Shown piece after piece: positions 4,828 through 61,593 of a stretch of DNA of 64,000 bases. Where the stretch lies: assembly GCF_019890675.1 (NCBI RefSeq), contig NZ_JAIOAA010000007.1, forward strand, positions 186,001-250,000. The letters run 5' to 3'. Numbering within the stretch: position 1 is the stretch's first letter; each line of letters begins with the position of its first letter. Source of the DNA: Micromonospora sp. PLK6-60. GTDB lineage: Bacteria > Actinomycetota > Actinomycetes > Mycobacteriales > Micromonosporaceae. The position numbers were made by a program, and so were the translations under genes. The notes under the pieces were generated by a model. The model searched no databases. It was not told the DNA's origin and worked only from the letters and a program-made list of their open reading frames with translations.

Positions 4828-4887
4828 GGTGTAAGGAGGGGCCCCTTATTAACAGACGTCTGTTAATAAGGGGCCCCTCCTTACACC
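4828..4887. repeat. 60-bp perfect palindrome, GGGGCCCC repeat copy 1
   Basis: Every base from 4828 to 4887 pairs around the centre 4857/4858 (AGAC|GTCT). The arms hold GTAAGGAGGGGCCCC then TTATTAACA. It sits exactly between two convergent genes, so its RNA hairpin, with internal AT tract, would stop transcription from both sides. The core is identical to copy 2 at 24136-24199. Confidence 0.9.
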
Positions 4888-24144: not shown

Positions 24145-24199
24145 GGAGGGGCCCCTTATTAACAGACGTCTGTTAATAAGGGGCCCCTCCTTACACCTC
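24136..24199. repeat. 64-bp perfect palindrome, GGGGCCCC repeat copy 2
   Basis: Perfect pairing around 24167/24168 from 24136 to 24199; the central 60 bp are identical to copy 1 at 4828-4887. It contains the stop codon of the SDR gene (ending 24144) and two of the three bases of the PBP stop (24198-24200), so both convergent genes end inside it. Confidence 0.92.
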
Positions 24200-31955: not shown

Positions 31956-32049
31956 GTCGCCTCGGTCCTTTCGTGGGTGGTCGCCGGGTCGCCTCCGCCG
32001 CCGTCGCGGCGGATCGTGGCGTGAACCGGAACCGGTGGCCGACTGACCA

Positions 32050-32221: not shown

Positions 32222-32274
32222 TAAGCAGGGGCCCCCTATTAACGCATTCTGCATAACAGGGGCCCCCTGTTAAC
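32222..32274. repeat. GGGGCCCC inverted repeat copy 3 (imperfect)
   Basis: Two GGGGCCCCC blocks flank the core word CGCATTCTGCATAACAGG; the arms are imperfect (GCAGGGGCCCCCTATTAACGCA against TGCATAACAGGGGCCCCCTG). The core is shared with copy 4 and, reversed, with copy 5. It lies in the 622-bp gap between rpmE and rho. Confidence 0.8.
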
Positions 32275-57802: not shown

Positions 57803-57857
57803 AAGGAGGGGCCCCCTGTTAACGCATTCTGCATAGCAGGGGGCCCCGCTTAACACC
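57800..57857. repeat. GGGGCCCC inverted repeat copy 4
   Basis: GGAGGGGCCCCCTGTTA pairs with TAGCAGGGGGCCCC around CGCATTCTGCA. It lies between the convergent MMPL and esterase-like genes, including the MMPL stop, and should terminate both. Confidence 0.85.
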
Positions 57858-57869
57858 TGAGCCGAGCGC

Positions 57870-59126
57870 TCACACCCCCGCCGGGTACGTCTCCATCTCG
57901 CCGAACGAGGTAAGCGCCGGCAGCGGGTGCAGCGCCGTCGTCTCGTCGCACCAGATGAACGCGTCGTAGCGCTCCCCCAGCCGGGTCGGCACGTAGTTGC
58001 CCCACGACTCGAAGCTGGGGTCGTACACCACTCCGATGGCCCGGTGGTCGGCCTCGCCGGTGACCCACTCCGGCTGGTCCGGGCCGCCGAAAACAAGCAC
58101 CGCCCGCTCCGGCAGCAGCTCGTGCAGCCGTCGCTCGACCGAGCCCTCCCGGGCCGGCGGAACGATCATCGTCTCGCTGGGCGAACCCCAGCGGGGCGCC
58201 GCCACCACCGTGCCCCGGTAGCTGCCGAAGCCGACCAGCACCACCGCCGCGTCGCCGTGCCGCTCCCGGCCCAACTGGCCGATGTTCACCATCCCGTCGG
58301 CCGCCATGTCGGTCGCCCGGGCGTCCCCCACGTGCGTGTTGTGCGCCCAGACGATGCCCCGGGCGTCCGGGCCGTACCGGTCGAGCAGCCGGTCCAGCGT
58401 GTCGGCCATGTGGGTGTCCCGCACGTTCCACGACTCCGGGCCGCCGTGCACCATGGCCCGGTAGTACCGCTCCGCGCCGGCGATCACCTCCGCGTTCTGC
58501 CAGGCCGAGAAGCGGTCCGGGCCGTCCGCCGCGGCCTGTTCCCGGGTACGCGCCAGCAGCCGCACCACCTCCTCCTCGCACCGCGCGGAGACGAACCGGC
58601 TCGCCGCCCCGTACTCCTCGACCCGCTTGCCGTACGGCTCGAAGCACCGGTACGCGTCCTGCGCGGCCTCCAGCGAGCCCGGGTCCTCCTCGCCCAGATA
58701 GTCAAAGATCGCCTGCATCGAGTCCCACAGGCTGTAGACGTCCAGCCCGTGGAAGCCGGCCCGCTCCCCCTCGGGCCGCTCGACGTTCCACGCCCGCAGC
58801 CAGCGGCAGAACCGGGCAACCTCCGCGTTGGCCCACATCCAGGTCGGCCAGCGCTCGAACCGTTCCAGAGCGGTCAGCGGGTCGGCCGCGCCGCCGGGCG
58901 CGGCCACCACCGACCGGTGCACCCGGTCGCAGTCCGGCCAGTCCCCCTCGACCGCGACGAAGTCGAAGCCCTGCTCGGCGATGAGCCGCCGGGTCAACTG
59001 CTCGCGCAACCGGTAGTAGTCGTAACTGCCGTGCGTCGCCTCGCCGAGCATCACGATCCGGGCGTCCCGCACCCGGTCCAGCAGAGGATCGAAGTCGCTC
59101 GGTGAGCCGAGCCGCTGAACCTGCAT
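57870..59126 (-). CDS. Erythromycin-esterase family protein
   Basis: A 418-residue protein of the Ere/EreB-like fold. MLGEATHGSYDYYRLR supplies the conserved Glu and His, VAVEGDWPDCDRVHR and IVWAHNTHVGDARATDM the other active-site elements. Ere enzymes hydrolyse the macrolactone of erythromycin, but many homologues in actinobacteria have other, unknown ester substrates. An Erm gene 0.3 kb away on the same strand makes macrolide resistance plausible. Confidence 0.88.
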   Translation of the reverse strand: MQVQRLGSPSDFDPLLDRVRDARIVMLGEATHGSYDYYRLREQLTRRLIAEQGFDFVAVEGDWPDCDRVHRSVVAAPGGAADPLTALERFERWPTWMWANAEVARFCRWLRAWNVERPEGERAGFHGLDVYSLWDSMQAIFDYLGEEDPGSLEAAQDAYRCFEPYGKRVEEYGAASRFVSARCEEEVVRLLARTREQAAADGPDRFSAWQNAEVIAGAERYYRAMVHGGPESWNVRDTHMADTLDRLLDRYGPDARGIVWAHNTHVGDARATDMAADGMVNIGQLGRERHGDAAVVLVGFGSYRGTVVAAPRWGSPSETMIVPPAREGSVERRLHELLPERAVLVFGGPDQPEWVTGEADHRAIGVVYDPSFESWGNYVPTRLGERYDAFIWCDETTALHPLPALTSFGEMETYPAGV

Positions 59127-59206
59127 GTCGCGGCCTACCCGGCGCGCCGCCGGGCAAACCGCGCGGGTCCGGGTGTGCGGGCGCGGCGGGCGGGTAGCCG
59201 GTGGGC

Positions 59207-59398
59207 ATGACCGTCAGCGGGGCGCAGATGCAGGAGTACCTGGCCGGGCTCGACTACCCGGTCTCCCGGGAGGACGTGCTCCGCCGGGCCCAGGAGAACG
59301 GCGCCAGCACCGAGCTGTTGCAGCTGCTGATGGCGCTGCCCGCGGACCAGTTCGACGATCCCGCCGAGCTGCACCGGGCGCTCGCCACGCTCGCCTGA
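59207..59398 (+). CDS. DUF2795 small protein
   Basis: A 63-residue helical protein, MTVSGAQMQEYLAGLDYPVSRED followed by LQLLMALPADQF, the pattern of DUF2795 (a KGG-like or regulatory domain of unknown role). ATG 59207 is 6 nt after TAGCCG, suggesting a leaderless mRNA. It lies between the Ere-like and Erm genes on the other strand. Confidence 0.85.
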   Translation: MTVSGAQMQEYLAGLDYPVSREDVLRRAQENGASTELLQLLMALPADQFDDPAELHRALATLA

Positions 59399-59402
59399 GC
59401 GC

Positions 59403-60203
59403 TCAGCGGGGGGCGTGCAGCAGGCGGAACAGCACCAGCCACTGCTCGGGCCAGACCAGCCCGACCGGGGTGGCCGGGTCGAGCCGGGCCGCCCGCAGCG
59501 CGCCGTCCACCCGGGCCCGCGGGTGAGCGGTCCGCAGCGAGGCCGCGAGGGAGCCGCCGACCCCGCCGAAGCCCAGCTCCACCATCCTTCGGTACGCCGG
59601 CAGCGCGGCCCGGGACAGCAACGGCTCGGGCCGGCGGTCGATCCGCAGGATCCCCCCGTCGACGGCGGGCACCGGGCGGAACGCGGCCCGGGGCACCCGC
59701 CCGGCCAGCCGCCAGTGGTACTCGGGCCAGGTCGACACGGTCAGCCGGCTCCACCGGCCGCGCTCGCCGGTGCGCTTGCGCGCGTACTCGAGCTGGGTCA
59801 GCAGGGTCGCCGCGCGCAGCCCCGGTGCGGCGAGGCACCACCGGACCACCGCGGCGGTCAGCGACCAGGGGATGTTGCCGACCACGGCGAACGGCTCGTC
59901 CGGCGGGTCGGCGGCGAGGAAGTCCGCGTGCCGGACGGTCACCCCCGGATGGTCGCGCCCGACGCCGGCCAGCTCGTCGACGACGGCGGGGTCCACCTCG
60001 TACGCGATTAGCCGGTCGCAGGCCGCGGCGAGCGGCCGGGTGAGCTGGCCACGCCCGGCGCCGACCTCGACGATCAGGTCGCCGGGGTCGGGTCGGGCCG
60101 CGCGGACCACGCGGGCGACGGCGGCCGGGTCGGCGAGAAAATTCTGGGACAGTACGCGACGGGTCCGGTCGCGTGCGGTGGTGCGGGTACGGCGGGGCGC
60201 CAC
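59403..60203 (-). CDS. Erm-family 23S rRNA adenine N6-methyltransferase
   Basis: A 266-residue SAM methyltransferase. SQNFLADP, motif I VEVGAGRGQLT, motif II AYEVDPA, motif IV VVGNIPWS and TQLEYARKRTGERGRWSR are those of Erm enzymes, which methylate A2058 of 23S rRNA and block macrolides, lincosamides and streptogramin B. The GNIPWS motif separates it from KsgA (NLPYN). Start GTG 60203 follows AGGAC; no other start fits before GTG 60350. The gene is preceded by a structured leader and a small ORF, so inducible expression is likely. A class-specific erm letter cannot be given. Confidence 0.92.
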   Translation of the reverse strand: MAPRRTRTTARDRTRRVLSQNFLADPAAVARVVRAARPDPGDLIVEVGAGRGQLTRPLAAACDRLIAYEVDPAVVDELAGVGRDHPGVTVRHADFLAADPPDEPFAVVGNIPWSLTAAVVRWCLAAPGLRAATLLTQLEYARKRTGERGRWSRLTVSTWPEYHWRLAGRVPRAAFRPVPAVDGGILRIDRRPEPLLSRAALPAYRRMVELGFGGVGGSLAASLRTAHPRARVDGALRAARLDPATPVGLVWPEQWLVLFRLLHAPR

Positions 60204-60210
60204 GGAGATC

Positions 60211-60269
60211 GTCCTGTCTGCCGCCGGACGGCGGCGGTACGGACAGGCAGCGCGGAGCGGGGCCTGTCC
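60211..60269 (-). promoter_or_regulatory. Attenuator-like segments in the erm leader
   Basis: In transcript order: segment 1 GGACAGGC (60269-60262), segment 2 GCCTGTCC (60248-60241), a GCCGCC-GTCC-GGCGGC hairpin (60235-60220), segment 3 GACAGGAC (60218-60211) just before the erm GTG. Segments 1 and 2 pair perfectly (8 bp); 2 and 3 pair over 6 bp and would hide the AGGA ribosome-binding site in segment 3. Confidence 0.6.
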
Positions 60270-60377
60270 GAGCGGATCGGGACTCGGACGACCCTGGGCG
60301 GTCGGCGGTACGCGTCGGCGCGCGCGAGGGCGGCCGCCGCACCCGGTCACGGGGCGGCGGCGGCCGATCAGGTCAGG

Positions 60378-60497
60378 TCAGGCGCGGCGAGCGTCCCGGC
60401 CGGCCAGGGCCGGGCGCCGGTTCCACGGACGGGCGACCAGGAGAAGGCCCCCCGTGGCCGGCGCGGCGGCCACGTTGATCAGGGCGTGCGCGAACAT
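60378..60497 (-). CDS. Small leaderless ORF upstream of erm
   Basis: A 39-codon frame beginning MFAHALINVAAAP with a Gly/Leu-rich middle and an Arg-rich end. Third-position G/C is about 35 of 38. Its ATG is 7 nt after TAGCCT, the same leaderless layout as several sure genes here. It ends 174 nt before the erm GTG, on the same strand, and could be a regulatory leader peptide or a small membrane protein. No homologue is recognised. Confidence 0.45.
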   Translation of the reverse strand: MFAHALINVAAAPATGGLLLVARPWNRRPALAGRDARRA

Positions 60498-60639
60498 GTC
60501 GGCCAGGCTAGTCGCCCGGTCGCTGCCCGGCGACGCAATTTCGCCCGCCGGCACGCGCCCACCCGGCGCCCGCCCCACCCCACGCGCCCCCGGCCTGCCG
60601 GACCGTGCCCCCGCGCGGCAGGCGGATGCCCGGCGCGGC

Positions 60640-60701
60640 AGGTGTTAATAAGGGGCCCCGCTACTACCGAATGCGTTAACAGGGGGCCCTTCCTTACACC
60701 T
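60640..60701. repeat. GGGGCCCC inverted repeat copy 5
   Basis: AGGTGTTAATAAGGGGCCCC at the left and GGGCCCTTCCTTACACCT at the right surround CTACTACCGAATGCGTTAAC. The GAATGCGTTAACAGGGGGCC part is the reverse complement of the copy 4 core. It includes the stop of the downstream oxidoreductase gene. Confidence 0.82.
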
Positions 60702-61593
60702 CGACGGTGCGGGACTGGGCGCGGGCGACCTCGGCGGCCCACAGCACCGCCACCACCTCCCGGCCGAACCGTACGTCGCAGCGGTGGTCCCGGGTGCCGG
60801 CGTCGATCTCCTCCAGCAGCTGGTCGATCGCGGTGCCGTAGGCGGTCAGCGCGCTGCCGTCGCCGGGCGGGACCACCTCGACGCCGTTCTCCCCGAAGAA
60901 GACGAAGTCCCGGGTGACCGCCGCGGGCGGCGCGTCCAGGGTGAGCGACAGCGAGCTGGTCGCGCCGCCGTCGTGGGTGAGCAGCAGGTGGACCAGGCCG
61001 CTCGGGCCGTCGGTGGCGGCGACCCGGGTGACCCGGCCGAGCACCGGCAGGACCAGCGACAGGGCGTGCGGGCCGATGTCCCACAGCGCGCCCTTCTCGT
61101 GCCGCCAGCGCGACTCGCCGTAGGGGTTGCCGGGCTGGAAGATGGAGGCGAACTGGGTGCCCCGGGCGTGCTGCCAGCCGCCCGCCGCGGCGGTGGCGGC
61201 CAGGAAGCCGGTGATGTTCGGGTGGTACCGCTGGGTGAAGAAGACCACCGAGGCGACGCCGCTCTGCTGCGCCGCGGCGACCACCCGGTCGGCGTCGGCG
61301 AGGCTGAGCGCCAGCGGCTTGTCCAGCAGCAGGTGCCGCCCCGCGGTGGCGGCCCGGAAGGCGATGTCGGCCTGCACGTCCGGCGGCAACGCCACCGCGA
61401 CCGCGTCACACGCGTCGATCAACGCGTCCACGTCCGGGAACACCGGTACGCCGTGCCGCGCGGCCAGCGCGCCGGCCCGCTCCGGGTTGCGGCCCCAGAC
61501 CCCGGCCAGGGTGGCGCGGGGGTGGGCGTCGATGGCCGCGGCGTGCGTCTCCGCCGCCCAGTGACCGGTGCCGAACAAGCCGAACCGCAGCAC
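60694..61593 (-). CDS. Gfo/Idh/MocA-family oxidoreductase
   Basis: A 299-residue NAD(P) enzyme: Rossmann GLFGTGHWAAETHA, GRNPERA, and the catalytic-region LLLDKPLALS with the conserved Lys-Pro, then an alpha/beta C-terminal domain (WDIGPHALSL). These enzymes act on sugars or inositols; substrate unknown. It is shorter than the usual 330-370 residues. Its stop lies within repeat copy 5. Confidence 0.88.
   Translation of the reverse strand: MLRFGLFGTGHWAAETHAAAIDAHPRATLAGVWGRNPERAGALAARHGVPVFPDVDALIDACDAVAVALPPDVQADIAFRAATAGRHLLLDKPLALSLADADRVVAAAQQSGVASVVFFTQRYHPNITGFLAATAAAGGWQHARGTQFASIFQPGNPYGESRWRHEKGALWDIGPHALSLVLPVLGRVTRVAATDGPSGLVHLLLTHDGGATSSLSLTLDAPPAAVTRDFVFFGENGVEVVPPGDGSALTAYGTAIDQLLEEIDAGTRDHRCDVRFGREVVAVLWAAEVARAQSRTVEV

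Follow-up and report, generated by a model that had tools for sequence, protein, structure and literature searches.

A leaderless-type leader peptide and alternative RNA pairings point to a probable drug-responsive attenuator upstream of erm in Micromonospora

The minus strand of the window, that is, of the whole 64,000-nt stretch of Micromonospora sp. PLK6-60 DNA that we analysed, carries an erm gene preceded by a short open reading frame and a series of complementary segments. The encoded protein scored 351.7 bits against the NCBIfam model erm_SHROVE (curated cut-off 320) and belongs to Pfam PF00398, which bears out the gene identity given when the locus was first read from its sequence alone (hereafter the sequence-only reading). 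The product is a putative 23S rRNA A2058 methyltransferase of the ErmE/H/O/R type, predicted to confer MLS resistance. A DUF2795 gene (59201-59398), convergent with erm, lies between erm and an erythromycin-esterase-family ORF (57870-59126, PF05139). Elsewhere in the window, an intergenic palindrome, GTTAATAAGGGGCCCC / GTTAACAGGGGGCCC, is repeated (4838-4883, 24148-24193, 32229-32274, 57809-57823 and 60644-60689); nine matches were counted in the window against 0.14 expected, two of them being near-perfect long palindromes. An L31-Actinobacteria ribosomal protein leader (Rfam RF03158) is found at 31979-32035 on the minus strand. Between 60100 and 60700, a search against Rfam with E values up to 1 found no family. 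From the promoter to the coding sequence, the features of the erm region are as follows; segments 1 to 3 are those of the sequence-only reading, and segments A to E were defined by comparison with related loci.

60537-60542, minus strand: A/T box GAAATT, a WhiB7/WblC-type element (consensus GAAAWY) starting 32 nt upstream of the -10 element
60505-60510, minus strand: -10 element TAGCCT, 7 nt before the leader ATG
60378-60497, minus strand: leader ORF MFAHALINVAAAPATGGLLLVARPWNRRPALAGRDARRA, 39 codons, coordinates including the stop codon
60423-60431, minus strand: leader codons 23-25, Arg-Pro-Trp, where nearly all relatives have Arg-Pro-Arg as the putative stall motif
60404-60412, minus strand: segment A CGGCCCTGG, inside the leader codons Pro-Ala-Leu, complementary to B
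60283-60297, minus strand: segment B CCAGGGTCGTCCGAG, between the leader and segment 1
60260-60272, minus strand: segment C CTCGGACAGGCCC, which includes segment 1
60262-60269, minus strand: segment 1 GGACAGGC
60241-60248, minus strand: segment D, identical to segment 2, GCCTGTCC
60220-60235, minus strand: inner hairpin GCCGCC...GGCGGC, just upstream of the Shine-Dalgarno (SD) sequence
60209-60218, minus strand: segment E GACAGGACGA, which includes segment 3 and the SD sequence AGGA (60215-60212)
60211-60218, minus strand: segment 3 GACAGGAC, which contains the same AGGA
59403-60203, minus strand: erm coding sequence, GTG start at 60203

As the sequence-only reading had described, a 39-codon ORF with the arrangement TAGCCT-7-ATG lies upstream of the GTG codon of erm, and three complementary segments follow it, with a 1:2 pairing of 8 bp (9 with a flanking C:G) and a 2:3 pairing of 6 bp (CCTGTC:GACAGG). 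These segments 1, 2 and 3 fall within or at C, D and E, respectively. Segment A can form 9 bp with B, one of them G-U, and B has two further options, to pair with C or, via TCGTCC, with the sequence GGACGA of the SD region. Dinucleotide shuffles of the 175-nt interval between leader and erm produced an 8-bp 1:2 pair in 39% of cases and a three-segment arrangement in 7%, so that the window sequence alone is weak proof of the segments. We consider the region to be real because the leader, the spacing of its start and the 1:2 pairing are conserved in related genomes.

The promoter of the window (60542-60505) reads GAAATT-GCG-TCGCCG-17-TAGCCT, with an imperfect -35 element, and has the layout of WhiB7/WblC-type promoters (box, 3 bp, -35, spacer of 17-18 bp, TANNNT). 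In S. coelicolor, WblC promoters are composed of GAAAWY, 3 bp, TKGMNN, 17-18 bp and TANNNT, and transcription begins 7-8 nt past the -10 element (PMC7157823). In the WhiB7 sites of M. abscessus, erm41 among them, the -35 element follows an AT-rich box at a distance of 3 bp (PMC10727445). A scan of the erm region for the sigma-70 consensus gave no match. Among 94 distinct erm-leader promoters, 85 carried an A/T box 30-34 nt upstream of the -10 element, compared with a mean of 2.0 and a maximum of 8 when the promoters were shuffled. Nearly all relatives had 6-7 nt between the -10 element and the start codon, other families mostly 7 nt, and the TAnnnT-6/7-ATG start was conserved in Micromonospora erm leaders. 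No SD sequence precedes the leader ATG in the window, where the 7-nt distance from the -10 element implies a transcription start at or next to the ATG. The erm-leader mRNA is predicted to be leaderless, starting at or adjoining this codon, and its promoter to depend on WhiB7; a WhiB protein with an RGRPRK AT-hook (L214) is encoded in the genome of the window.

The search for leaders in relatives asked for no more than TAnnnT followed, after a short spacer, by a start codon that opens a short reading frame. Homologous leaders were present at erm; their length was 37-41 codons in Micromonospora, against 27-37 in Dactylosporangium and Actinoplanes. The leaderless-type ORF, whose conservation had been proposed as a check on its significance, is thus conserved across the genus and beyond. 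Leaders having been found without regard to the peptide sequence, an Arg-x-Arg motif was counted in 112 of the 115 leaders of the combined first set. The only exceptions, the window (L002), L008 and L011, all read Arg-Pro-Trp; in the window the motif context is RPWN, the Trp being encoded by TGG at leader codon 25 (60423-60425), and the Trp state requires three changes on the erm tree. These three leaders constitute a natural test of the stall motif, and the Arg-Pro-Trp motif may lower or change the inducibility of erm in the window strain.

We then analysed codon usage in 86 distinct leaders, numbered from the first Arg of the motif (codon 0). Arg0 was present in 86/86 (100%) and Arg2 in 83/86 (97%), encoded by three and four synonymous codons, respectively, and this maintenance through several synonymous codons indicates selection on the peptide. 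Codons 4-10 (Arg-Arg-Pro-Ala-Leu-Ala-Gly), with the exception of codon 5, were nearly fixed at synonymous sites (CGG 85/85, CCG 85/86, GCC 85/85, GGC 85/85), indicating selection on the RNA.

Alignment of the loci with short inserts defined five conserved segments, A, B, C, D and E, together with the inner hairpin between D and E. The stretch from the leader to B varied in both length and sequence. Segment B reads CCAGGG[C/T]CGTCCGAG across the aligned loci, and CAGAC and GGAC of segment E were invariant in 34 aligned leaders. C:D was paired in 99% of cells (33 distinct rows), slid controls being far lower, and a single mismatch occurred in four rows. Compensatory changes were found in one clade (GGACAGGC/GCCTGTCC to GGACCGC/GCGGTCC) and in L057 (GGACAGGC/GCCTGTCC to GGACGGGC/GCCCGTCC), which is the covariation that had been suggested as a check on the 1:2 pairing. 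The inner hairpin was paired in 98% with changes on both sides, and one of its pairs alternated between T-A and C-G (21:11 among 32 paired rows, none broken at that pair). B:C was paired in 91%. A and B also covaried, leaders with CCG or TCG instead of CTG at codon 8 having CCGAGGG or CCGTGGG instead of CCAGGG in B.

The D:E pairing was present in 99.5% of the counted rows, yet it is nearly invariant there, and it is lost in the clade with D = GCGGTCC, where GTCC:GGAC can still form. Because this clade keeps 1:2, D:E is not the only sequestering pair, and we rejected it in that role; the 2:3 pairing that the sequence-only reading had seen as burying AGGA does exist in the window, but would not be alone in its proposed function. 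Compensated events on the erm tree were few in all (about 2 for C:D, 3 independent ones for the inner hairpin and 1-2 for A:B), and tree-based sign tests lacked power. Overall, alternative pairings that would hide or free the SD sequence are backed by covariation for C:D and the inner hairpin. The three-segment switch proposed earlier is made of real segments but is incomplete, since A and B are equally conserved and would link translation of the leader to the switch.

A covariance model of segments B-E (R1) matched 94 of 160 Micromonospora genomes, once each and almost always at the start of erm; Erm itself was found in 93 of the 160 (E <= 1e-50). Two genomes without an Erm match, G021 (L196) and G147 (L197), contain decayed erm remnants that keep the B-E element, and no leader peptide is recognisable at these two loci. 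An esterase-family ORF similar to that of the window lies downstream of both remnants. In G123 a broken erm (C1:1675724-1676552) still has the B-E element, G086 and G148 carry a distant erm without it, and the match of G027, which has no erm, is weak and probably due to chance. We discarded the idea of a stand-alone RNA element that serves other genes: R1 occurs once per genome at erm or decayed erm, bar this one weak match.

For distant loci the leader search was combined with the A/T box, again ignoring the peptide. In many actinobacterial families, erm is preceded by a leader of 12-47 codons whose promoter has the same spacing, so the design that the sequence-only reading had called unusual is usual in this group. 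A similarly placed leaderless-type leader was present at 43 of 60 class-level erm loci from other actinobacterial families. All 43 contained Arg/Lys-x-Arg/Lys, a motif known to stall macrolide-bound ribosomes, compared with 45% of background ORFs, and 33 contained R[LIVPYF]R, compared with 16%, the loci in both counts not being phylogenetically independent. In several families the leaders have only 12-22 codons and retain both Arg-x-Arg and the promoter. A:B-like pairs were found at p <= 0.05 in 12 of the 43; measured from the first Arg codon, most of their A-like segments start at 15-21 nt, in few independent lineages and within a short searched range. A 2024 survey that applied ORFfinder to ~250 bp reported no universal conservation (PMC11264731), and most of the Micromonospora, Nocardiopsis and Actinomadura leaders in our set begin farther upstream than this distance.

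These data bear on the possibility that the WhiB7-type promoter alone controls erm, the leader and the RNA being kept for another reason, for example to stabilise the RNA or to keep translation constitutively low. In favour of this, conservation is as high for the promoter motif as for the leader, and the WblC regulon of S. coelicolor includes lrm/SCO6089, an Erm(O)-type gene (PMC7157823). However, selection of Arg-x-Arg as protein via synonymous codons and the presence of the basic-x-basic motif in every one of the other-family leaders point to drug-dependent stalling, and the compensatory changes in C:D also argue against the promoter acting by itself, an explanation that we regard as very unlikely.

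The reading that we favour, and that the comparison of genomes makes probable, is that the region is a drug-responsive leader-peptide attenuator of erm fed by a stress promoter. Comparison supports the promoter motif, the leader and the spacing of its start, protein-level selection on Arg-x-Arg, RNA-level selection on A, the complementarity of A:B and of B:C, and the covariation of C:D and the inner hairpin. From these we infer a transcription start, a stalling site, a direction of switching and an induction as follows. The WhiB7/WblC-type promoter would give rise to an RNA beginning at the leader ATG and, because it begins there, ribosomes would load on its 5′ end without a Shine-Dalgarno sequence. 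A macrolide-bound ribosome would stall with the middle residue of Arg-x-Arg (in relatives, Arg-Pro-Arg) in its P site, and would then reach just to the beginning of segment A. Segment A, free of ribosomes, would pair with B and remove it from C and from the SD region; C:D (the 1:2 pairing) would then form, leaving the SD sequence in E free, and Erm would be made. Without drug, ribosomes would cross A, and B:C plus D:E (the 2:3 pairing), or B:E directly, would form, so that erm would be little translated. The step of stalling may be weakened in the window strain, because its motif is Arg-Pro-Trp.

The position of the stall can be estimated from tlrB of B. subtilis, where the stalled ribosome has Tyr of the RYR motif in its P site and the second Arg in its A site, and where the toeprint lies 15-16 nt downstream (PMC6851288). 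With a tlrB-like placement of the stall at Arg-Pro-Arg, the ribosome reaches to nt 18-19, counted from the first Arg codon, and A extends from nt 19; the stall therefore seems to expose A, not to cover it, bearing in mind that by position alone an exposed A is indistinguishable from a masked A. When the RNA was removed up to a ribosome stalled at Arg-Pro-Arg, the median A:B probability was 0.65 vs 0.22 in the full leader, and it was 0 with the ribosome at the leader stop codon. The ON (A:B plus C:D) and OFF (B:C plus D:E) states lay mostly within about 5 kcal/mol of each other. At equilibrium, none of the states tested had a free SD sequence, which was paired with D, B or the leader instead, so that the model would have to rely on kinetics during transcription or on energies beyond the accuracy of the Turner parameters. 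When a ribosome footprint was shifted along the leader, equilibrium folding failed to switch the SD sequence on and off, and for this reason we do not put folding energies forward as proof. For the window, stalling at the motif lowered the predicted C:D from 0.86 to 0.17, and the folding preference was B:E (TCGTCC:GGACGA).

An alternative is a masking logic as in ermC/ermA, the partner of a leader segment being freed when the stalled ribosome covers that segment. Its simple five-segment version was rejected: masking A favours B:C plus D:E, that is, an OFF state with drug. In a longer version, the ribosome would mask hairpins inside the leader, formed by codons -15 to -8 and by codons -11 to -9 with 3 to 5, and A:B would follow one step later in a chain with an even number of alternatives. 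Consistent with this version, the leader-internal hairpin covaries (L-43:L-22, C-G 47, G-C 27), the alternative pair between codon -11 and codon 5 shows A-T 44, G-C 21 and G-T 13, and codons 3-5 would lie under a ribosome at Arg-Pro-Arg. Against it, the 12-22-codon leaders of several families leave no room for internal hairpins and the tree-counted support for the internal pairs is weak, and we consider masking unlikely. Under the exposure of A that we prefer, the hairpin of codons -15 to -8 and the alternative pair of codons -11 to -9 with 3 to 5 may add a further step.

Control could also be exerted on transcription, which strong hairpins between leader and erm, or Rho, would end in the absence of a stalled ribosome, as happens with whiB7/wblC. 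The B:C and C:D stems are GC-rich; whiB7 leaders act via a uORF and a terminator (PMC10727445), and the tlrB leader of B. subtilis joins transcription and translation attenuation (PMC6851288). Nevertheless, a consensus scan of 59300-60800 revealed no site resembling an intrinsic terminator, there is no conserved T-run, and the conserved segments converge on the SD sequence. We give this explanation little credit and retain attenuation of erm translation as the preferred reading.

Leader-peptide control of erm, leaderless uORFs and WhiB7 regulation were already known separately, and in the open-access literature we found no paper on this combination in Micromonospora or as a shared actinobacterial erm design. 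If true, one compact leaderless design, present in most Micromonospora and in many other families, would unite a WhiB7-type promoter with a stalling leader and so combine two layers of intrinsic macrolide resistance. It is conceivable, with a chance that we place somewhat below even, that intrinsic actinobacterial erm genes share one ancestral or repeatedly selected design, comprising a WhiB7-type promoter, a leaderless mRNA, an Arg-x-Arg macrolide sensor in the first codons and a trp-like exposure switch with the stalled ribosome just upstream of the segment that captures the anti-SD strand. Such a design would contrast with the published view that erm uORFs lack a universal conservation pattern and have independent origins. 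Natural variants make the mechanism directly testable, namely, the Arg-Pro-Trp leaders, the clade without 2:3 and the two decayed erm loci without a recognisable leader.

Among known systems, the translational attenuators of ermC, ermA, ermB and ermD likewise join an erm gene, a leader peptide and alternative pairing around the erm SD sequence. Leaders of the ermD type use RLR. In contrast to the leader described here, those of the four genes have an SD sequence and are generally shorter, and control of the ermC type masks a segment whereas here the stall seems to expose one. The tlrB (yxjB) leader of B. subtilis resembles the leader type described here in the +X+ motif near the leader end, the rRNA methyltransferase gene downstream and the RNA that sequesters, or here would sequester, the SD sequence, but it has 9 codons, its own SD sequence and an intrinsic terminator (PMC6851288). 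Here, the leader is of the leaderless type with 39 codons, the promoter is of the WhiB7 type, no terminator was found and A lies beyond the predicted stall site. The uORF attenuators of whiB7/wblC share the actinobacterial uORF, the antibiotic-induced stalling that is predicted here, and the regulatory circuit; they control whiB7 transcription via a terminator (cited in PMC10727445), while the element studied here would act on erm, apparently via the SD sequence. In the trp operon attenuator, a ribosome stalled upstream at Trp codons leaves segment 2 (A in our case) free to capture segment 3 (B), and a ribosome that runs on disrupts this capture. That attenuator senses charged tRNA and controls termination, whereas a drug and the translation of erm would take these places here. 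In its logic, the attenuator that we propose is most likely nearer to that of the trp operon than to that of ermC.
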